The notes under the pieces are model-generated. The model was given only the letters and a program-made list of their open reading frames with translations. It did not search any database and had not been told where the DNA came from. Made by a program: the position numbers and the translations under genes. Shown here one piece after another: positions 122 to 7,232 of a stretch of 33,548 nt of DNA (its first letter is position 1; every line of letters begins with the position of its first letter). Source of the stretch: a virus; the IMG/VR virus record IMGVR_UViG_3300009700_000005, positions 1 to 33,548 of that record; one strand, 5' to 3'.

Positions 122-846
122 CCACCGAGCCTGGCGGCATCTGCATAGGGACGTGCAACTCGCAATGGCGCAAGGCTCACGCGCTCTACGCCGACGGCCT
201 CGCGAAGTACGACAAGGCGCTGGAGCAGCTGGCGGACGGCGACGATGTACCGAATCCCCCAGCGCCGCCGGATATCAGGCCCTGGTACGGGCAGCCCTAC
301 TGGTGCGGCAGGTGCATGGCCCTGATCAAGGCCGAGCTGGCGGAACTGGACGACCTGGCGTCGATGCTCGCCGCGCTCCCGCCCGGCATCCGCCCGGCCG
401 TGTCCGCCAAGCACGAGCGGGTCAAGGTGTCAGGCTCGCACGGCACCCCGTCTGCATCGCCGTCCGGCGACAGCCTCGAAGAGCTGGCGGCCTGGCTGAA
501 AAGCTGGGAGGCGATGGCCAAGGACGAGGACGACCCCACTCCCCGCCGCGGCCATCTCGCCACCGAGATCACGACCGTCCGTTCATGGCTCTACGCGCAC
601 TTCGACCTGCTGATGCTCAACCCTGATGTCGCTCAGCCGTTCGGCGAGGAAACGCGTGCCTGGCACCGCGAGCTGATCGCCCGGGCTCACGCCGCATCGG
701 CAGCCAAGCACGTCAAGCAGCCATGCCCCCGGTGCAAGCTCTTCACCCTCTGGGAAGAACTCGGCCAGGACTACCTGAAGTGCATCAACGTCGACTGCAA
801 CAGGCGCCTCACCCGAGCCGAGCTCGACGCCGAGACTGCTGCCTGA
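118..846 (+). CDS. zinc-ribbon phage protein, 242 aa
   Basis: I do not recognise a named function. The protein carries several cysteine pairs that could bind zinc: C9 and C13 near the start, the pair in WCGRC around residue 62-65, and a clear C-terminal zinc ribbon (CPRC, then a C-x4-C pair about 17 residues later, residues about 200-228). The middle is helical and charged. Start chosen at the ATG that overlaps the previous stop (ATGA), so translation is probably coupled. Proteins with a C-terminal zinc ribbon just upstream of terminase genes are common in actinobacterial phages and often bind nucleic acid; a DNA-binding or regulatory role here is inference only. Confidence 0.8.
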   Translation: MTTEPGGICIGTCNSQWRKAHALYADGLAKYDKALEQLADGDDVPNPPAPPDIRPWYGQPYWCGRCMALIKAELAELDDLASMLAALPPGIRPAVSAKHERVKVSGSHGTPSASPSGDSLEELAAWLKSWEAMAKDEDDPTPRRGHLATEITTVRSWLYAHFDLLMLNPDVAQPFGEETRAWHRELIARAHAASAAKHVKQPCPRCKLFTLWEELGQDYLKCINVDCNRRLTRAELDAETAA

Positions 847-853
847 CCCTGTG

Positions 854-883
854 TTGACCGTGCCGGAACGCTCTGTGTACAGT
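854..883 (+). promoter_or_regulatory. sigma70-type promoter candidate
   Basis: TTGACC at 854-859 and TACAGT at 878-883 are separated by 18 bases, close to the housekeeping -35/-10 consensus. They lie immediately after the stop of the preceding gene. The predicted transcription start is near 890, only about 14 bases before a terminator-like hairpin. This is the best plus-strand promoter I see in the window and may drive the late operon. Confidence 0.55.
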
Positions 884-903
884 CATGCCAGCAGCACACG
901 AAT

Positions 904-928
904 GCCCTGGCCACGGCCGGGGCTTTTT
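904..928 (+). terminator. intrinsic terminator / attenuator hairpin
   Basis: GCCCTGGC (904-911) pairs with GCCGGGGC (916-923), with one T-G wobble and a 4-base loop, and is followed directly by TTTTT (924-928). It sits about 14 bases after the predicted start of the upstream promoter. Most transcripts would therefore end after about 40 bases unless the signal is overridden. This arrangement fits an attenuator or a source of a very short RNA. Confidence 0.6.
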
Positions 929-940
929 GCATGTCCGGGG

Positions 941-1195
941 GTGGCCGCCCTGGACGTCACCGCCCGGTACTTCACCGAAGACGGACGGCCGCTTCTCAAC
1001 GCTGCGGAGTGCGCCGAGGTGTACGGCATCCGGGCTCGCACGATCTACGAGTGGCGCCGCCGCCGCTTCCTGACGGTCCGCGGACTTGATGCGGACGGCC
1101 GGGAGTTGTATGACGCCGCAGAGGTAGCCAGAGTGCAGGCGACACCCCGGAACCGTGAGCGTCAGGCACCAGATCCCGGCCGGATGGCGGCCTGA
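941..1195 (+). CDS. MerR/excisionase-like HTH protein, 84 aa
   Basis: Small DNA-binding protein. From about residue 15 it reads LLNAAECAEVYGIRARTIYE followed by a basic stretch, the pattern of a MerR/excisionase-type winged HTH (a recognition helix followed by a short beta wing). The start is uncertain. The frame is open from a GTG at 851, but that longer version would be translated through the promoter and terminator hairpin. I chose the GTG at 941, where conserved-looking sequence begins; ATG 902 is another option. The same fold forms the C-terminus of the GIY-YIG protein encoded next. The gene lies between two promoter/hairpin elements, which suggests a regulator of this region, but this is inference. 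Confidence 0.7.
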   Translation: MAALDVTARYFTEDGRPLLNAAECAEVYGIRARTIYEWRRRRFLTVRGLDADGRELYDAAEVARVQATPRNRERQAPDPGRMAA

Positions 1196-1200
1196 GCCGA

Positions 1201-1250
1201 TAGACTGTTCGCCATAAAGCGCCCCGACGATGTGTCACCATCGCCGGGGC
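1201..1250 (+). promoter_or_regulatory. -10 box followed by 12-position hairpin
   Basis: TAGACT at 1201-1206 resembles a -10 box; I find no good -35. It is followed by a strong hairpin: GCCCCG-A-CGATG (1221-1232), a 6-base loop, then CATCG-C-CGGGGC (1239-1250), with a single A/C mismatch. No T-run follows, so it is not a classic terminator. It fills the leader of the GIY-YIG gene and parallels the promoter-plus-hairpin layout at 854-928. Confidence 0.45.
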
Positions 1251-1277
1251 CAGCCGACCTGATGAGAGCAGATCGAC

Positions 1278-2192
1278 ATGACAGAGTTTACGATCCGCTG
1301 CGGATGCGGCCGGGCCATGACCCTGGACGCGCCGCGAGGCCGCTGTGCCTACCGATGCGGCTGCGGTGCCAGGGTCCGCGTTGAGGACGCGCCGAGCCAG
1401 GCGAAGATATGCGTCGCCGTTGAATCCGGGACCGCCTGCCGCTTCGCGCCAGTGACGGCCGAGCCGGTGGCACTCTGTAAAGGCCACGCCAGGGCGCTCC
1501 GCGAGCAGCTGATGGTTGCCAGCCTGGCATGCGCGCCGCTGGCCGAGGAAGACGCTACCGAGCTAGTTGCCGCGTGGCTTGACCGTACGGTGAGCGGCGG
1601 CATTGACCGCGATGCGCTCCGCAGGCAGCGCCGGGCCGATCACGCCAGGGCGGCCGCCCTGGCGCGCCGAGATCTTGAGGCAGCCAGTGTCGTCTACTAC
1701 ATCCAGTTCGGCGACCGCATCAAGATCGGTACCACCACGGACCTCGGCAAGCGGCTCGGCGCCCTCCCGCATGACTGCCTGCTGGCAACCGAACCCGGCG
1801 GGCCTCTCGTGGAACGCCAGCGTCACGAGCAGTTCGGGGCGCTGCGGATCAAGGGCGAATGGTTTGAGCCGGCCCCGGTTCTGCTCGGCCACATCCAGGC
1901 GCTTCCCCGCCACGCGAGCACAGCAACGCCACCCCGCCGCAGCATGCCCACCACCACATCGGACGGGCGCATCCTCATGGCCACGACGCTGGCTGCCGAC
2001 GTGCTCGGCGTGAATCCCTCCACAGTGTCCCGCTGGCGATCACTGGGCTACCTCTCGCCAGCCCCCGGCGGCACAGCGCGCAAGCCGCTCTATGCGTGGG
2101 ATGACGTGCTGGAGGCGCAGAGACTGGCCCGAGACGCGGCGATAGCCACATCGGGCAGTGACAAGCGCGTCCGGCGCAACATGGCCGCCTGA
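1278..2192 (+). CDS. zinc ribbon - GIY-YIG (T5orf172-like) - HTH fusion, 304 aa
   Basis: Three modules are visible. Residues 7-30 form a cysteine-rich ribbon (C8, C10, C23, C27, C29). Residues about 137-208 look like a GIY-YIG nuclease of the T5orf172/MUG113 type: VVYYIQF at 138-144, KIGTT at 149-153, an arginine at 159, a conserved ERQRHEQF segment and GEWF at 193-196. Residues about 234-290 are a MerR-like HTH similar to the small protein encoded upstream. GIY-YIG domains cut DNA, and this subfamily is frequent in phages and in DNA-interaction proteins. The start ATG has AGAGCAGA upstream. It sits next to the terminase genes, where a site-specific nuclease could act in packaging, homing or regulation; which of these is unknown. 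Confidence 0.8.
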   Translation: MTEFTIRCGCGRAMTLDAPRGRCAYRCGCGARVRVEDAPSQAKICVAVESGTACRFAPVTAEPVALCKGHARALREQLMVASLACAPLAEEDATELVAAWLDRTVSGGIDRDALRRQRRADHARAAALARRDLEAASVVYYIQFGDRIKIGTTTDLGKRLGALPHDCLLATEPGGPLVERQRHEQFGALRIKGEWFEPAPVLLGHIQALPRHASTATPPRRSMPTTTSDGRILMATTLAADVLGVNPSTVSRWRSLGYLSPAPGGTARKPLYAWDDVLEAQRLARDAAIATSGSDKRVRRNMAA

Positions 2193-2227
2193 CCCTTCCA
2201 TGACGAGCCGTGATCCGGGAGTGAAGC

Positions 2228-2794
2228 ATGACGACCCCGGCACCAGGCCCGAAGCGCAAAGGCCCGTACTGCGGCGGGAAACTCCACGGCCGCGACGGAA
2301 CATGCACCCAGGCTGCGGGGTGGGGAACGCCGCATCCTGGCCACGGCCGGTGCAAGCTTCACGGCGGCAGCGCCCCCTCGGGCCGGATCGCGGGTGCGCA
2401 GAAGCAGGCGCGGGCCGGGCTCGCGCAGCTCGGGGTAACGCCGGTTGACGATCCGCTGACGGAGCTGGCGAAGGTGACCGGCGAGGTCATTGCGTGGAAG
2501 AACGCCACGGCAGCCCTGGTCAACAAGCTCACGTCGGTTCGGTATGACGGCGAACTGACCGGCGAGCAACTGAGGTCCGAAGTCCTTTTGTGGGAGCGGG
2601 CGCTGGACCGGTGCGAGAAGTTCCTGACCGCGATGGCACGGTGCGACATCGATGAGCGGCTGGCCAGGGTGCAGCTCCGGCAGATCGAGCTCGTGAACGA
2701 GGCGCTGGCCAAGGCGCTGGCCGACATGGGGTTTGATCCAGCGAAGCAGAAGCAGGCGCAGCAGCTTGTCGCCCGGCACCTGCGGGCCGTCTAG
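2228..2794 (+). CDS. terS: terminase small subunit, 188 aa
   Basis: Likely the DNA-recognition subunit of the packaging motor. The N-terminus has a Cys/His-rich segment ending in CKLHGGSAPSG, the HGG-x-PSG signature of many actinophage small terminases. A mostly helical region follows, with a long charged helix around residues 95-160 that would allow ring assembly. It precedes the large terminase by 100 bases, the usual order. Start ATG follows GGGAGTG. The gene ends in TAG, so TAG works as a real stop in this genome. Confidence 0.8.
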   Translation: MTTPAPGPKRKGPYCGGKLHGRDGTCTQAAGWGTPHPGHGRCKLHGGSAPSGRIAGAQKQARAGLAQLGVTPVDDPLTELAKVTGEVIAWKNATAALVNKLTSVRYDGELTGEQLRSEVLLWERALDRCEKFLTAMARCDIDERLARVQLRQIELVNEALAKALADMGFDPAKQKQAQQLVARHLRAV

Positions 2795-2882
2795 CCTCCG
2801 CTTAGTGCCGTCGCGCTGGCCAGCGGGTTCTTACGTTCGCTCACCAGCCGGCAAGCGTGCCGCGCGGATTGAGCCTCCGCTT
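2793..2882 (+). repeat. direct repeat pair between terminase genes
   Basis: AGCCTCCGCTT occurs at 2793-2803 and again at 2872-2882, framing almost all of the gap between the two terminase genes. Between the copies are a perfect 12-base palindrome CGCTGGCCAGCG (2814-2825) and a small CGGCA/TGCCG hairpin (2849-2862). The right copy runs into the ribosome binding site of the large terminase. Such a framed, structured gap would suit a packaging site (cos or pac) or an operator; nothing in the sequence proves either. Confidence 0.4.
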
Positions 2883-2894
2883 TAGGAGTGCACG

Positions 2895-4484
2895 GTGGCG
2901 GCTGGCTTCGCGGCGATGCTGGCCGACCGGCTCGACCCGCCCGACCCGCCGGTCTTCGAGACCCTCGGCTACGAGCCGAACTGCAAGGTCCGCCACGACG
3001 CGCGGCAGCGAGGCGCGCTTGTCCTGCCAGAGCCGTGCGGCCAGTGCCCGCAGGAGCTGTTCCACGCGGCCACCGAGTTCGACCTTCTCTTCGGCGGAAG
3101 TTCCGGCGGGGGAAAGACCAGGGCTCTGACCTGCGAGGCGCTGCGGGCGTGCATGCGCTACCCCGGCATCCGGGTCGGGGCGTTCCGCCGCACCTATCCG
3201 GAACTGAAGGAGTCACTGCTCGCCGAGCTGGCGGACCTGGCCTACGCGTCGGCGCTGGGCGCGGTGTGGAACGGCACCGAGTACGAGCTGCGGTTCCCGA
3301 ACGGGTCGCTGATCATGTTCCGGTACGCGGAGACGATCAAGGACGCGACGAGGCGGCAGGGCGGCCAGTACCAGCTCCTGGTCTTCGACGAGAGGACGCT
3401 GACCCCTCCGGACGTGATCGCGTTCCTCGAGTCGAGGCTCCGGTCGGGCCGGGCTGACATCCCGGTGCTCGGCATCCGGTCATCGGCGAACCCGGGCGGC
3501 GCGGGGCACGGCGCGGTCAAGGCCCGGTACATCGTGCCCACGAACCACGGCGAGCGGGTCATCACCGACGAGCGCGGCCGGACTGTCCGTTTCATCCCCT
3601 CGCGGCTGTCGGACAACCCGCATGTGAATCCGGAGTACGCCGCCGACCTGCACGCCCTGCCGGCGAAGCTGCGGGCCGCCTTCCTGGACGGCAACTGGAA
3701 TGTCTTCAGCGGCCAGATGTACCCGGAACTAACGCGCGACCGCCACGTCATCGCGCCTATCTCGCTGCCAGAGTCGTGGCGCCGGTACAACGGCATCGAC
3801 TGGGGGTTCGGGAAGCCCTGGGGCGTGCTGTACGCGGCGGTCGATGAGGACGGCCGGGTCTGGTGGTACCGCGAGCTCTACTCCGCCGGGGTCGGCGAGG
3901 CGGAGCAGGCGCGGCGCATCCTCGAAGCCGAGGCCGGCGACGAGCGGGTGCTGATCCGCTACGCCGATGACGCCATGTGGGCTTCCCGCGGTGACCCCAA
4001 GACCATCGCCGACGTATACGCCGACAACGGCGTGCATCTGACCAGGGCGAACAAGGGCTCGCGGGTCATCGGCTGGCAGCGCCTGCGCTCCTACCTGGCC
4101 GAGAAGCCGGCGTGTTTCCTGCACCGGTCAATGGGCTGGGACACCTGCCCCGGCATGCACATGTTCTCCACGCTGGAGAACTTCTACCGCACCCTGTCGG
4201 ACCTGCCGCACGCCACCAAGGGCGATCCTGAGGACGCGGACACCAACGCCGAGGACCACCTGCCGGACTGCGCCCGGTACCTGCTGATCAACCTTGGCAC
4301 CGGCCCCGAGTTCGTCATCCTCGAAGACACGCCGAAGTCCCTGCTCGACGGCATGGAGATCCCGGAGCAGGTCGGGAACTTCGGATACCGCCGGGACGAC
4401 ACGGACGGCATGTTCGCCGCGGCAGCGCTGGCGAGGAACGGCAGCGACCAGGCCCACGGCACCCAGCGATCACCGTTCGCGTGA
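2895..4484 (+). CDS. terL: terminase large subunit, 529 aa
   Basis: ATPase-nuclease that drives DNA into the prohead and cuts it. Walker A is GGSSGGGKT (67-75) and Walker B is LLVFDE (161-166). The RNase H-like nuclease domain begins at GIDWGFG, with the likely first metal ligand D302. Other acidic candidates are in YADDA (about 356-360) and AEDHLPDCA (about 452-460). Length is typical for the family. The start is a GTG at 2895 with AGGAG at 2885-2889. The region between Walker A and the nuclease shows no frameshift or gap. It follows the small subunit and precedes the portal, with two inserted minus-strand genes in between. Confidence 0.95.
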   Translation: MAAGFAAMLADRLDPPDPPVFETLGYEPNCKVRHDARQRGALVLPEPCGQCPQELFHAATEFDLLFGGSSGGGKTRALTCEALRACMRYPGIRVGAFRRTYPELKESLLAELADLAYASALGAVWNGTEYELRFPNGSLIMFRYAETIKDATRRQGGQYQLLVFDERTLTPPDVIAFLESRLRSGRADIPVLGIRSSANPGGAGHGAVKARYIVPTNHGERVITDERGRTVRFIPSRLSDNPHVNPEYAADLHALPAKLRAAFLDGNWNVFSGQMYPELTRDRHVIAPISLPESWRRYNGIDWGFGKPWGVLYAAVDEDGRVWWYRELYSAGVGEAEQARRILEAEAGDERVLIRYADDAMWASRGDPKTIADVYADNGVHLTRANKGSRVIGWQRLRSYLAEKPACFLHRSMGWDTCPGMHMFSTLENFYRTLSDLPHATKGDPEDADTNAEDHLPDCARYLLINLGTGPEFVILEDTPKSLLDGMEIPEQVGNFGYRRDDTDGMFAAAALARNGSDQAHGTQRSPFA

Positions 4485-4499
4485 CGGAGGTGGGGGCCG

Positions 4500-4841
4500 A
4501 TGCCTGAGTACGCGCCGCCCGGCACCGTCCGCCGGTCCCCGTTCGCAGACGTCGGCGAGGATCTCGCCCTCGCCGACCTGATCATGCTCGCCCGCGAGCT
4601 ACGAGACCGACAGGAGCAGATCATGGCAGCTCAAGACGACGTGAACGCGGCAGCAGCGGCGATCAGCGCGGCGGCGGTGAGCCTGGGCGAGTCAGCGACC
4701 GCGATCCAGGCAGCGCTTGCGGCCGGGTCGCAGGTGGACACCTCCGCACTCGACGCGGGCGTGACCCAGCTCCAGGGCGCCGTGGCTCAGGTAGCGGCGC
4801 TCGCGCCATCCTCGGTGCCGCCTGCACCGGCCGCTGTCTAA
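4500..4841 (+). CDS. small Ala-rich helical phage protein, 113 aa
   Basis: Function not recognised. After a short Pro-containing N-terminus, residues about 20-105 are rich in Ala, Gln, Val and Leu with heptad-like spacing, so a coiled coil is likely. The tail is Pro/Ala-rich. The start ATG at 4500 has GGAGGTGGGGG upstream. A second in-frame ATG at 4623 also has a good AGGAG (about 6 bases away), so a shorter 72-residue form may be made. It is the last plus-strand gene before a convergent minus-strand pair, separated by only two bases from that pair's stop. Such short coiled-coil proteins are common beside terminase genes and are usually uncharacterised. Confidence 0.65.
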   Translation: MPEYAPPGTVRRSPFADVGEDLALADLIMLARELRDRQEQIMAAQDDVNAAAAAISAAAVSLGESATAIQAALAAGSQVDTSALDAGVTQLQGAVAQVAALAPSSVPPAPAAV

Positions 4842-4843
4842 GA

Positions 4844-5278
4844 TCACGGGCGGACTGGCCACGTCGCACCCTCGAACCGGAACACGATCACGCCACCTTC
4901 GGTGCAGTAGTGCGGCAGGCCCCGGTCGTCAGTTCCGTGCAGGTAATACATGCGGAAGACGCAGCGGGGGCACGCGAGTTCCAGCACGTCGCCGCGCCAG
5001 GTCGCTACCGCTACCGCGGGCTCGCCTGTTGCCACCTGGTCGCCCGTTGCCGCATCCACGACTGAGAGCGTAGACGGCTGCGCCCAGAATCCCGTGAAGT
5101 TGCGCACGAGTTCGCCGTCGTGCCACTTCACGTGCCCGGCCAGCGCCTCGGCGCTCTCAGGCACGGCGCAGAAGCAGGCAGGGCACTGGGCGAAGCCGCT
5201 GGTGATCGTGCCCCCGGCAACAGAGATGGCAGCCAGCCGCAGCCAGTCCCGCCGGATCGCGGACCGCCCGGTCGTCAC
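4844..5278 (-). CDS. minus-strand zinc-finger protein, 144 aa
   Basis: Unrecognised, but looks like a genuine zinc protein. The segment CPACFC (about residue 32-37) followed by H49 and H53 in GHVKWH resembles a C2H2-type finger, and a second CPRC lies about 50 residues later. The rest is beta-rich with aromatic residues (FRMYYLHG). It begins with GTG three bases after the stop of the membrane protein upstream on the same strand, so the two form a minus-strand operon. It faces against the late genes and meets the preceding plus-strand gene with almost no gap, the pattern of a cargo (moron) gene. Expression in the lysogenic state is possible but not shown. Confidence 0.7.
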   Translation of the reverse strand: MTTGRSAIRRDWLRLAAISVAGGTITSGFAQCPACFCAVPESAEALAGHVKWHDGELVRNFTGFWAQPSTLSVVDAATGDQVATGEPAVAVATWRGDVLELACPRCVFRMYYLHGTDDRGLPHYCTEGGVIVFRFEGATWPVRP

Positions 5279-5281
5279 CGC

Positions 5282-5548
5282 TCACAGCCACCGCCGCGTC
5301 CACTTCACCGCGTGCCACCTCCGGTACGGCCGCACCAGGACCACGTTCCCCGCGGTCAGGTCTGTCATGACCCGGCGGACCACGACCGTTTCCGTGCTCT
5401 CGCCGTGGTCGACGTCCAGCAGCTCCCCGGCGCTGGCGAACGGCCCTGCCAGCGTGATCGTCGCCGTCCGGCGCGCGGCCAGGACCATCACCCCCGCCAG
5501 GGCGGCGGCAGCGATCAGGAGCGCGCCGATGGCGATATCCGGGATCAC
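5282..5548 (-). CDS. minus-strand small membrane protein, 88 aa
   Basis: The N-terminal residues IPDIAIGALLIAAAALAG and onward form one clear transmembrane helix, then AARR marks the cytoplasmic side by the positive-inside rule. The rest is a beta-rich domain of about 60 residues ending in a basic WHAVKWTRRWL tail. The frame is open further upstream, but that part overlaps the portal gene in antisense and is low complexity, so I chose the GTG at 5548. There is no Shine-Dalgarno sequence. Instead TATGCT lies exactly 6 bases before the GTG, which suggests a leaderless mRNA. It is followed 3 bases later by the zinc-finger gene. Function unknown; a one-helix membrane protein beside a zinc protein is a plausible superinfection or stress cargo pair. 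Confidence 0.65.
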   Translation of the reverse strand: MIPDIAIGALLIAAAALAGVMVLAARRTATITLAGPFASAGELLDVDHGESTETVVVRRVMTDLTAGNVVLVRPYRRWHAVKWTRRWL

Positions 5549-5554
5549 GCGGAC

Positions 5555-5560
5555 AGCATA
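5555..5560 (-). promoter_or_regulatory. -10 box for the 5548-4844 minus-strand pair
   Basis: Read on the minus strand, TATGCT is followed by 6 bases and then the GTG start. A transcript would begin at or next to the start codon, as in leaderless mRNAs, which are frequent in actinobacteria. I see no convincing -35 hexamer. Confidence 0.45.
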
Positions 5561-5576
5561 AGGCCGGGAGGTCCGG

Positions 5577-7232
5577 GTGCCTCTCGCCGACTTGCTGACC
5601 GGCCGTCCCCGCGGGAAGCACCACGCCGCAGAGACGGCGCGGACGGTCACGGTGATCGAGGCCGGCCCGGTCAGGGCCATGTCAGCGGACCAGGCCGCCG
5701 CCGCCCGCACCGTCACCCGTTCCGGATTCGCGTACGGCATCGGGCCCGGCGGCATGGACGAAGTCCAGTCCGGTATCGGCGCGGCCACAGCCTCGGATCG
5801 CAAGAGCCTGCTGACCGAGCTGTGGGAAGCGTACCTGTGCTGCCCGTGGGCGTGGGTCGCCGTCCAGACCATCGCCCGCACCGTCACCGCCGGCGGCCTG
5901 GTCACGGACTGGGACGCCGACAGCGGCGAGGGCGATCAGGAGGCCCCGGACAAGCCGGCGAATGTCCTGGCGCTGGAAGCGCTGCTCGATTATGTCAACC
6001 CGGCGCAGAACATCCGCCAGCTCTGCCGCAACTTCATCGCCGACCTGCTCGTCTTCGGCGACGCCTACCTCGAGGTCGTCTGGATCGGGTCGCTGCCGGT
6101 CGCCCTGTACAACCAGGACTCGCCGACGACCACCCCGATCGCCGACTCCCACGGCGCGGTCTCCCGCTACGTGCAGGTGTCCGACTACGGGCAGCGGGCC
6201 GACTTCGAGCCGCACGAGATCATCCACGTATCCCTGGACGCGGCCCGCCCGTCGGTGCTCGGCATCTCCCCGATGCAGGCCGCCGTCGAGTCCGTGAAGG
6301 TGTGGCTGTTCGCCAACGGCACCGGCAAGGAGGCCGCGAAGAAAGGCCTGCCGCCGAACTTCCACGCCGACTTCCCGGCGGGCGCGGCCGACAAGGACAT
6401 GCGGACCTGGCGGGACCAGCACGCCACCAGGAACCTCGGCGCGAGGAACATCGGCGCGCCGATCATCACCAAGGGCGGCGTGAAGCTCAATGAGCTGCAG
6501 ACGGGGAAGATCGGCGACGTCATCGCGCTGAAGAACCAGGCGCGGGACGAGATCCTGTCCGACTTCGGCGTCCCCCCGGCCGAGGGCGGGGTGATCGAGG
6601 CGGGGAACCTCGGCGGCGGCACGGGCGATTCACAGCACCGGACATATCAGATCAATACGTGCGGCCCGATCGGCGAGCTCGTCATCGAGGCACTGAACTT
6701 CGCGCTCACCATCCAGGCGTTCAGGATCACGGACTGGAAGCTGAAGTTCGGCGAGGTCGACTACCGCGACTCGGTCATCGTGGAGGGCATCCGCTCGCAG
6801 CGGCTCCGCGACGGCGCCTGGACGCTGAACAAGTACCGGGCCGAGATCGGCGAGCCGCCGGTGCCCGGCGGGGATGACGCAGTGCTCGTGGACAGGCAGA
6901 ACCTGGTCCTGTGGGCCGACATGGCAGCGATGTCGAAGGCGGTCGTGGCAGGCAAGGGCGCGCCCGGTGTGGCCGCCGGGGAGCAGCCACCGGGAGGGGA
7001 GCCGGTCGCAGGCGACCCGTCGGCACCGGACGCGCCGCCGGGTGACGGCGACCCGGACCAGCCGGCGGGCAAGTCCGGCATGCCTAAGAGCCCGCGAGAG
7101 TCACTGCCGCCAGCGCCCCGGGAAGCGCTGCGGGCCACTCAGCTTGCCCTGTACCAGGCACGGCTTCGTGAGGCGATGGGACGCATGCCCATCGCCGGGT
7201 CAGCCTCATCGACGATCGGCGGGAACCGATGA
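5577..7232 (+). CDS. portal protein, HK97 type, 551 aa
   Basis: Forms the dodecameric ring at one capsid corner through which DNA passes and to which the tail attaches. Recognisable portal features include the helical segment NFIADLLVFGDAYLEVVW, the HEIIHVSLD segment followed by VLGISPMQAAVESV, and the clip/stem-like region ending in ARDEILSDFGVPP. The last hundred residues are Pro/Gly-rich and probably disordered. Start GTG with GGGAGGT at 5567-5573. It lies downstream of terminase as expected. Its 3' end overlaps the next gene by 4 bases (ATGA), so the two are translationally coupled. No break in the frame is seen. Confidence 0.9.
   Translation: MPLADLLTGRPRGKHHAAETARTVTVIEAGPVRAMSADQAAAARTVTRSGFAYGIGPGGMDEVQSGIGAATASDRKSLLTELWEAYLCCPWAWVAVQTIARTVTAGGLVTDWDADSGEGDQEAPDKPANVLALEALLDYVNPAQNIRQLCRNFIADLLVFGDAYLEVVWIGSLPVALYNQDSPTTTPIADSHGAVSRYVQVSDYGQRADFEPHEIIHVSLDAARPSVLGISPMQAAVESVKVWLFANGTGKEAAKKGLPPNFHADFPAGAADKDMRTWRDQHATRNLGARNIGAPIITKGGVKLNELQTGKIGDVIALKNQARDEILSDFGVPPAEGGVIEAGNLGGGTGDSQHRTYQINTCGPIGELVIEALNFALTIQAFRITDWKLKFGEVDYRDSVIVEGIRSQRLRDGAWTLNKYRAEIGEPPVPGGDDAVLVDRQNLVLWADMAAMSKAVVAGKGAPGVAAGEQPPGGEPVAGDPSAPDAPPGDGDPDQPAGKSGMPKSPRESLPPAPREALRATQLALYQARLREAMGRMPIAGSASSTIGGNR

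Follow-up and report, generated by a model that had tools for sequence, protein, structure and literature searches.

Why should a phage encode, side by side and next to its terminase genes, a small free-standing helix-turn-helix (HTH) protein and a GIY-YIG nuclease that itself ends in an HTH domain of the same type? The question is raised by IMG/VR record IMGVR_UViG_3300009700_000005, a stretch of 33,548 nucleotides (hereafter the window) that is classed as virus and represents a 33.5 kb fragment of a genome. Near its left end, all on the plus strand, lie in order a gene for a protein that we call UP, the free HTH gene (HTH#1), the GIY-YIG gene, a candidate small terminase gene (TerS) and the large terminase gene (TerL) (Table 1). 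A first, sequence-only reading had proposed that the two HTH-bearing proteins form a nuclease/regulator pair, in which one HTH would act as repressor or competitor at the binding site of the nuclease. The answer that we prefer, and to which we give an even chance of being right, is that a free-standing nuclease cassette of the homing type, here the GIY-YIG gene, was retargeted by capturing the HTH of a phage regulator.

The GIY-YIG protein retains the residues of its family

The frames of both genes are open, and domain matches together with a structural model suggest that the GIY-YIG frame joins a nuclease to DNA-binding modules in one open reading frame (ORF). The protein matches the MUG113 profile PF13455 with 24.5 bits, above the cut-off of 22.3, and phrog_8604 at 2.5e-24; it scores 14.7 bits against PF10544, below the cut-off of 20, and gives no match at E<=1 to the GIY-YIG domain profile PF01541. 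In an alignment of the window protein with 12 relatives, Y140, K149-I-G151, R159, G174, E179, H183, F186 and E194 are invariant, so that the GIY-YIG family residues on which the sequence-only reading depended (Y140, K149-I-G151, R159 and E179) are in place in all 13 sequences; Y140, K149, I150, G151, R159 and E179 are likewise invariant in an alignment of 11 sequences that includes the window. Because the lysine that replaces the YIG tyrosine is present in 13 of 13 aligned sequences, we regard it as a trait of the family and not as decay. The protein is best classified, on its alignments, as a nuclease of the MUG113/T5orf172 type with family residues intact, and it is predicted to cut DNA.

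The zinc ribbon that had been described at the nuclease N-terminus, as a second possible DNA contact, is present, and a zinc knuckle follows it; the domain was located in 20 proteins of the family, and 16 of these match the knuckle pattern, a 21st, from contig L088, having been left out as misframed. The AlphaFold2 (AF2) model has block means of the predicted local distance difference test (pLDDT) of 95-98 for residues 141-210 and of about 40-70 for the HTH tail. Foldseek found no match for the full model in the PDB at E<=0.001, nor did the PDB sequences yield one at E<=1, and structural re-alignment of the model placed Slx1 and UPF0213 entries in its top five rows, weakly (Z <=4.5), and MerR-type proteins on the HTH tail. 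Both Slx1 and the UPF0213 protein are GIY-YIG proteins. A single-protein scan of the genome contigs with the nuclease returned no relative. A plasmid protein of Streptomyces sp. NBC_01334 (contig L009, 6001-6624), annotated as hypothetical, has the same double-zinc N-terminus followed by GIY-YIG (31% over residues 1-209) and is without an HTH tail.

The HTH tail and a sister allele without the nuclease

The proposal that the free HTH and the C-terminus of the nuclease (HTH#2) belong to one MerR-like family proved correct: HTH#1, like HTH#2, matches phrog_2474, 'MerR-like transcriptional regulator' (2.6e-12), and the alignment of HTH#1 with the C-terminal part of the nuclease scores 65 against a shuffled mean of 25.6 (standard deviation 4.8, maximum 51), with 0 of 1000 shuffles as high. 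HTH#1 matches the Pfam models HTH_17 and MerR_1 only below their cut-offs. The nearest solved relative of the HTH family profile is entry 6amk, a BldC complex (1.1e-8), with weaker matches to RppC (6hlk, 0.0013) and a TerS domain (1j9i, 0.021); HTH#2 reaches 15 bits against the BldC model NF033787 of NCBIfam, whose curated threshold is 77, and the kinship with BldC is thus structural only.

A sister contig, L052, carries the locus in another state. Over window positions 2124-6173 it is 98.9% identical to the window; upstream of the boundary, where it diverges (66% to window 559-854), it has a promoter-like gap, a homologue of UP and a single free HTH, and GIY-YIG gave no match. The last 22 residues of this free HTH are identical, save one, to those of the window nuclease, and a possible start codon of it aligns with Met 223, the internal methionine at which HTH#2 begins. 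When the shared tail is left out, the alignment scores are 102 for HTH#2 with the L052 HTH, 62 for HTH#2 with HTH#1 and 73 for the L052 HTH with HTH#1. Because L052 has just a free HTH where the nuclease tail lies, the fusion looks like a product of recombination, and the simplest history consistent with these sequences would be a crossover by which the resident HTH of a recipient became linked to a UP-HTH-GIY block from a donor, such as Gordonia phage Suerte has. An assembly error is unlikely, since L051, another metagenome contig, with 7 mismatches to the window in 10,677 bases, carries the last 128 nuclease codons in one open frame.

Recombination could also have left a mere by-product, a nuclease gene on its way out with a functionless HTH tail. 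That the fusion occurs in one virus only (two contigs), and that the tail is joined through a linker of low model confidence (pLDDT < 50 at 213-227 and 229-233), would fit such an accident; we nevertheless think it rather unlikely, given that the frame, the family residues and the HTH core are all intact and that the second assembly has the same open frame over its 128 codons. The closer likeness of HTH#2 to the L052 HTH, together with the near-identical tail, raises a further possibility modelled on Odn of ICP1, which excerpts of PMC8263062 describe as a T5orf172 nuclease that keeps Arg and Glu, bears a RepA_N domain resembling the one in its target, whose origin it cuts. By analogy, the window nuclease would bear the HTH of the regulator of a rival (L052-like) virus or satellite and destroy its control region, sparing its own genome by virtue of the different specificity of HTH#1. 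We hold this to be improbable, as no satellite or target site was identified and the near-identical tail may merely reflect the recombination junction.

The free HTH accompanies UP

The main partner of HTH#1 looks, from gene content, like UP, of which HTH#1 would be the split-off DNA-binding half. UP is mostly helical, with zinc-type cysteine sites at both termini, of which C203, C206, C222 and C227 are invariant among 21 aligned sequences. Its AF2 model (mean pLDDT 87) gave five viral Foldseek matches at E<=0.001, with template modelling scores of 0.30-0.40 only and three of them to named actinophage proteins, and no match in the PDB at E<=0.001. UP and HTH#1 belong to the proteins of phrog_908, phrog_1467 and phrog_1568 with a phrog_2474 HTH, here split in two; two of the three families have no described function and the third is labelled just 'DNA binding protein'. 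The family phrog_908 covers both the UP and the HTH part, and includes the UP::HTH fusions Archis79, Denise71 and Cornie90. The HTH forms the C-terminal part of the UP-related gene in Archis, MissRona, Denise, Sarge, Bauer, BENtherdunthat and Cornie; it is a separate gene in Suerte, REQ2 and KristaRAM, whose UP-only proteins have phrog_1467 as their best PHROG, and it adjoins UP in Suerte and REQ2. The window differs from these regulators in having two HTH copies, one of them on a nuclease.

Locus counts agree. Among 80 TerL-related viral loci, 41 had at least 4 kb upstream of TerL (near-duplicates kept in): UP occurs in 24 of these, the HTH in 26, both in 23, GIY-YIG in 3 and none of the three in 13. 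The HTH lies within 1.2 kb after UP in 21 of the 23 loci with both (21/41) and farther off in L063 and L076. In a plus-strand scan of 13 genome loci, where at least L168, L173 and L165 are by contig ranges the same prophages as L091, L082 and L072, UP and HTH occur together in 8 and GIY-YIG in 0. A single-protein scan of viral contigs with HTH#1 found no relative. Because of the fusions and the locus counts, we read UP and the HTH as two halves of one DNA-binding protein to which the nuclease is optional, UP appearing to be a phage DNA-binding regulator without its HTH half.

The nuclease/regulator pair therefore survives in part. A free HTH and a GIY-YIG gene do recur together, in the same order as the window in Suerte and within one locus in REQ2 and L088, but GIY-YIG is found in only 3 of the 41 loci, and the HTH goes with UP. 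That one HTH represses or competes at the site of the nuclease has become doubtful, and we lowered that reading accordingly: besides the company that the free HTH keeps and the closer score of HTH#2 to the L052 HTH, the HTH helices of HTH#1 (RARTIYEW) and HTH#2 (NPSTVSRW) differ at 6 of 8 positions.

The gap between UP and HTH#1 offers a position at which such a regulator might act. Over positions 600-3000 there is one promoter-like site, TTGACC-18-TACAGT, where shuffles give 0.1 on average, and one terminator-like site, the hairpin at 904-928, where they give 0.7. The use of GTG 941 as the start of HTH#1 is a choice: this codon is internal to the frame, which spans 851-1195 in the ORF list, and is preceded by the terminator-like hairpin and a G-rich site. 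Terminator-like hairpins pass the threshold in 21 of 26 distinct UP-HTH gaps, against 7.6 expected from mononucleotide shuffles; in the gaps of L007, L011, L052, L055 and L124 none does. From its position, we infer that the late operon may begin in this gap, with a regulated promoter and an early terminator, and that UP/HTH may be the regulator, its two halves acting together on the downstream (late) genes. In L071, L077, L082, L096, L118 and L128 the UP-HTH gap contains perfect or near-perfect palindromes (GTTACGCGTAAC, TCACGCGTGA, GTCATGCATGAC and alike), which from their place at the promoter position upstream of the HTH are candidate operators of the UP/HTH regulator; none like them was seen by eye in the gap of the window.

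GIY-YIG genes reside at varying places in the regulator locus

The relation between the nuclease and the UP/HTH locus extends to other phages. From the records with a GIY-YIG match, 10 named actinophage loci were selected, and in every one of them a UP-type or UP::HTH gene is no farther than two genes from the nuclease gene, the family assignment of the phi16 locus resting only on shared PHROG 12885. Its place varies: before the UP-type gene in REQ2 and BENtherdunthat, after it in Archis, MissRona, Sarge, Bauer, Cornie, Denise and phi16, after the free HTH in Suerte, and, in viral contig L088, between UP and HTH. Matches in Mx8, P7869 and two Streptomyces plasmids lie in other contexts. Found in 3 of the 41 TerL-related loci, the GIY-YIG gene is an optional resident of the UP/HTH locus.

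Residence near the terminase could alternatively mean that the enzyme has been domesticated, serving its own phage in packaging or recombination by the terminase in place of the HNH gene that many related phages have close to the genome end, with HTH#2 anchoring it to a packaging site like a gpNu1/TerS DNA-binding domain. Nine of the 10 named actinophage loci, all save phi16, have HNH as their final or penultimate annotated gene; in the window the candidate TerS follows the GIY-YIG gene after only 35 bases, which leaves no HNH between them. The GIY-YIG gene of Microcystis phage MinS1 adjoins TerL, and the HTH family profile has the weak TerS-domain and RppC matches given above. However, GIY-YIG was not found in 38 of the 41 TerL-related loci, the same nine phages carry GIY-YIG and HNH together, so that no replacement has occurred there, the window is a fragment whose HNH may sit elsewhere, and the leader described below is common to HNH and Endonuclease VII genes. 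On balance we regard domestication as unlikely.

A structured RNA leader shared by nuclease genes

Directly before the nuclease gene lies a structured RNA leader. The window segment folds better than 200 of 200 shuffles (z -3.5), and a covariance model, whose training set includes the window, matches it at 1216-1281 with 50.1 bits (2e-11). In 27 aligned leaders, 8 of the 11 pairs of its hairpin P1 changed on both sides, with 22 cells against 3.3 in shuffles and 0 of 500 shuffles reaching that value; P1 pairing stands at 97.6% and falls to at most 57.1% when the partner is slid by 1-3 columns. Since 18 of the 27 leaders were obtained with a DNA pattern that fixes part of P1, the covariation rests mainly on the inner stem and the 9 other leaders. 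For most of the 27, folding also predicts a second hairpin, which holds the Shine-Dalgarno (SD)-like motif; its mean energy is -5.9 kcal/mol, that of the shuffles -4.3, which is weak evidence for segments so short, with p < 0.05 in just 3 of 27, and L030 (a shortened segment), L150 and L160 fold worse than their own shuffles; of the leader hairpins, P1 is the only one that we claim as supported. Rfam gave no match at the leader at E<=1 (10 loci) or E<=5 (6 loci).

The genes behind this leader are of several families. The P1 DNA pattern, picked regardless of proteins, was found in 32 viral contigs, which, after L141 gave no ORF behind the element and four duplicates were dropped, yielded 27 distinct proteins directly behind it: Endonuclease_7 12, HNH 5, HNH_5 3, HNH_3 2, NUMOD3 1 and MUG113 1, where one protein may count under more than one model. 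As controls we took the first downstream ATG/GTG ORF of at least 80 codons (26 found, 22 used, 4 beside the dropped duplicates), and these 22 contained 0 members of nuclease families and 4 of Terminase_3. The model also gave 8 distinct strong matches (E<1e-5) in sequences not used for training, and 6 of them precede a Pfam nuclease family, one of the six, L020, having itself been fetched by a GIY-YIG search; this count leaves aside L168, which is the prophage of L091, and L021, which duplicates Archis. Genes of the Endonuclease VII, HNH and GIY-YIG kinds in other phages thus have this leader in front of them. In L108, a 65-bit match at 552-615 precedes an apparent membrane protein of 138 amino acids without a Pfam match, so that nuclease genes are not strictly the only ones with such a leader. 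The leader also bears on gene annotation: the annotated start (3869) of Archis gp81 (L003, 3743-4240) looks too far downstream, since the frame is already open at an ATG that immediately follows the leader and, read from there, takes in the zinc knuckle, and Suerte gp70 has a similar upstream extension with the knuckle.

Organisation of the locus and its neighbours

The coordinates of the features are collected in Table 1.

Table 1. Features at the left end of the window, with the evidence for each (aa, amino acids)
Feature	Positions	Strand	Evidence
UP protein, 242 aa	118-846	+	phrog_1568, 7.4e-16
Promoter-like site TTGACC-18-TACAGT	854-883	+	motif scan of 600-3000
Terminator-like hairpin and TTTTT, before HTH#1 start	904-928	+	motif scan of 600-3000
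Free MerR/BldC-like HTH (HTH#1), 84 aa from GTG 941	941-1195	+	profile matches
Structured RNA leader	1216-1277	+	covariance model, shuffles, P1 covariation
Leader hairpin P1	1221-1250	+	covariation
Smaller predicted leader hairpin, SD-like GAGAG in loop, followed by ATG 1278	1255-1275	+	folding
Predicted chimeric nuclease, zinc ribbon - zinc knuckle - GIY-YIG (MUG113/T5orf172 type) - HTH, 304 aa	1278-2192	+	
N-terminal zinc ribbon, aa 8-29	1299-1364	+	C8-x-C10...C27-x-C29
Zinc knuckle C45/C54/C67/H70	1410-1487	+	residue pattern
GIY-YIG domain, aa 137-210	1686-1907	+	Y140, K149-I-G151, R159, E179
HTH#2, aa 223-304	1944-2189	+	phrog_2474, 4.6e-8
Allelic exchange boundary to sister contig L052	2124-2192	+	identity break
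Candidate TerS, HGGxSTG motif	2228-2794	+	phrog_9231, 7.8e-4
TerL	2895-4484	+	phrog_979, 5.3e-36

The terminase neighbourhood that the sequence-only reading had recognised is confirmed by these matches, the candidate TerS falling under the cut-off of the HGG_STG profile (E 0.12). Relatives of TerL occur in Streptomyces, Catenulispora and other actinomycete genomes, and the host of the virus was probably an actinobacterium. A tRNA scan of the window found none. An exact 11-base direct repeat, AGCCTCCGCTT, at 2793-2803 and 2872-2882 flanks the gap between the candidate TerS and TerL (0 expected), and may stem from duplication of a ribosome-site region, mark the scar of an insertion or belong to a packaging site; the stretch 2795-2895 has a folding energy of -40.8 kcal/mol, a raw value without shuffle comparison. 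Between TerL and the portal gene, a minus-strand ORF (4844-5278, 144 aa) with cysteine pairs runs opposite to the direction of its neighbours.

Discussion

Several lines of evidence lead us to prefer a homing-type cassette that captured a regulator's HTH. We favour it because the family residues are intact and the core of the model is confident; because GIY-YIG genes lie near UP-type genes in all ten named loci at varying places and were not found in 38 of 41 TerL-related loci; because the L052 allele is without the nuclease and has its identity boundary inside the HTH; because the leader is common to other nuclease families; and because there is precedent in excerpts of PMC10448857 and PMC2988022. 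The former report that T5orf172 homing endonuclease genes (HEGs) have the terminase nearby in 35% of their neighbourhoods and that they occur at boundaries of genetic exchange, and the latter describe ribosome-binding site (RBS)-sequestering hairpins in T4 homing endonuclease genes and autorepression by I-TevI.

In this proposal, a free-standing homing-type nuclease cassette would sit in a conserved phage regulator locus, and an exchange between a donor UP-HTH-GIY and a recipient UP-HTH-TerS arrangement would have fused the nuclease to the resident HTH. HTH#2 would then direct the nuclease to the operator of that type of regulator, where it may cut related phages that lack the cassette and so bias inheritance of the locus, or, like I-TevI, repress where no cut site is within reach, while the hairpin leader may limit or time translation of the nuclease. 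What the sequences show directly are the domains, the P1 structure of the leader, the allelic difference and the co-localisation of the genes; the DNA target, cutting, homing, the function of the leader and the late-gene role of UP/HTH are deduced from these.

Other observations weigh against the capture of an HTH by a homing cassette. None of the other GIY-YIG relatives examined has an HTH tail, which is confined to this virus (two contigs), and the difference from L052 runs upstream through UP, which indicates a wider exchange and no clean empty site. An inverted repeat at the L052 promoter, TGTTGNCAACA, has two weak matches in the window (<=2 mismatches) where five are expected. The start of the GIY gene shares 4 bases with the end of UP::HTH in Cornie and Denise, as would be expected of a co-regulated partner, and neither GIY gene has a leader match with the covariance model; two of the eight strong leader matches have no nuclease behind them (L067, with a zinc-finger match only, and L108 at 552). 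Finally, recurrent residence beside one regulator could equally reflect a useful function.

Comparison with known systems indicates that the nuclease may work in ways likened to I-TevI and Odn while being a member of neither. According to excerpts of PMC10448857 and PMC2988022, it shares with I-TevI and the T4 seg enzymes a GIY-YIG nuclease, RBS hairpins and residence by essential genes, and with I-TevI a zinc finger and a C-terminal HTH, transcriptional repression being I-TevI's. In contrast to I-TevI, the window protein has a catalytic domain of MUG113/T5orf172 type with KIG for YIG and without a PF01541 match, its zinc modules precede the nuclease domain, its HTH is MerR/BldC-like and common to a phage regulator, and its leader is common to several nuclease families. 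The nuclease ORF sits between other ORFs, and an Rfam scan of the spanning locus, L001, gave no intron match at E<=1. With Odn, as excerpted in PMC8263062, the window protein shares a GIY-YIG-type nuclease with a DNA-binding domain like the control protein of another element; it differs in that its domain is the MerR-like HTH of a phage regulator, with no RepA_N among Pfam matches at E<=1, and in its order of nuclease, then HTH. The T5orf172 HEGs in excerpts of PMC10448857 have in common with it zinc DNA-binding modules, nearness to the terminase and an exchange boundary at the gene, whereas the window adds an HTH tail and a leader RNA; of the modules usual in those genes (CapR, DUF723 and DUF4397), DUF723 and DUF4397 are not among the Pfam matches of the window, and CapR was not scanned.

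The leader recalls the SAS/ESAS elements of cluster K mycobacteriophages, which excerpts of PMC3203893 describe as an inverted repeat followed by an SD motif with symmetric ends before the starts of non-structural genes. Both are paired elements before start codons, but the P1 of the window has compensatory changes, which those excerpts report as not found for ESAS, and leaders of its type lie mainly before nuclease genes. The SAS 13-mer GGGATAGGAGCCC has 8 matches in the window, all with 3 mismatches, fewer than by chance and none at the leader. A bolder combination of these findings, which we put forward only tentatively and consider doubtful, is that the leader is an undescribed RNA element marking and co-regulating a whole network of mobile nuclease cassettes (EndoVII, HNH, GIY-YIG and MUG113) in phages, the named ones all actinobacterial, and that one cassette here captured the HTH of the phage's late-gene regulator and so became a nuclease directed against the control region of sibling phages, the regulator of the carrier itself having a diverged HTH.

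Each component of the locus has known relatives; what appears new is the capture of a resident regulator's HTH and a leader common to unrelated nuclease families. In the open-licence literature we recognised no report of HTH capture by a nuclease, of a leader spanning nuclease families or of a late regulator of this kind, and the excerpts of PMC1564403 and PMC11855218 contain no description of this arrangement. If our preferred explanation is right, the locus would be a natural example of a mobile-type phage nuclease gaining a DNA-binding domain from the locus in which it resides, and a sister allele would show how the locus looks in its absence. If translation is under the control of the leader RNA, genes for unrelated nucleases would have a switch in common, by which mobile nucleases could also be traced in phage genomes. 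As a system that may control the late genes of these phages, the UP/HTH locus and the promoter-terminator gap within it make a concrete candidate.

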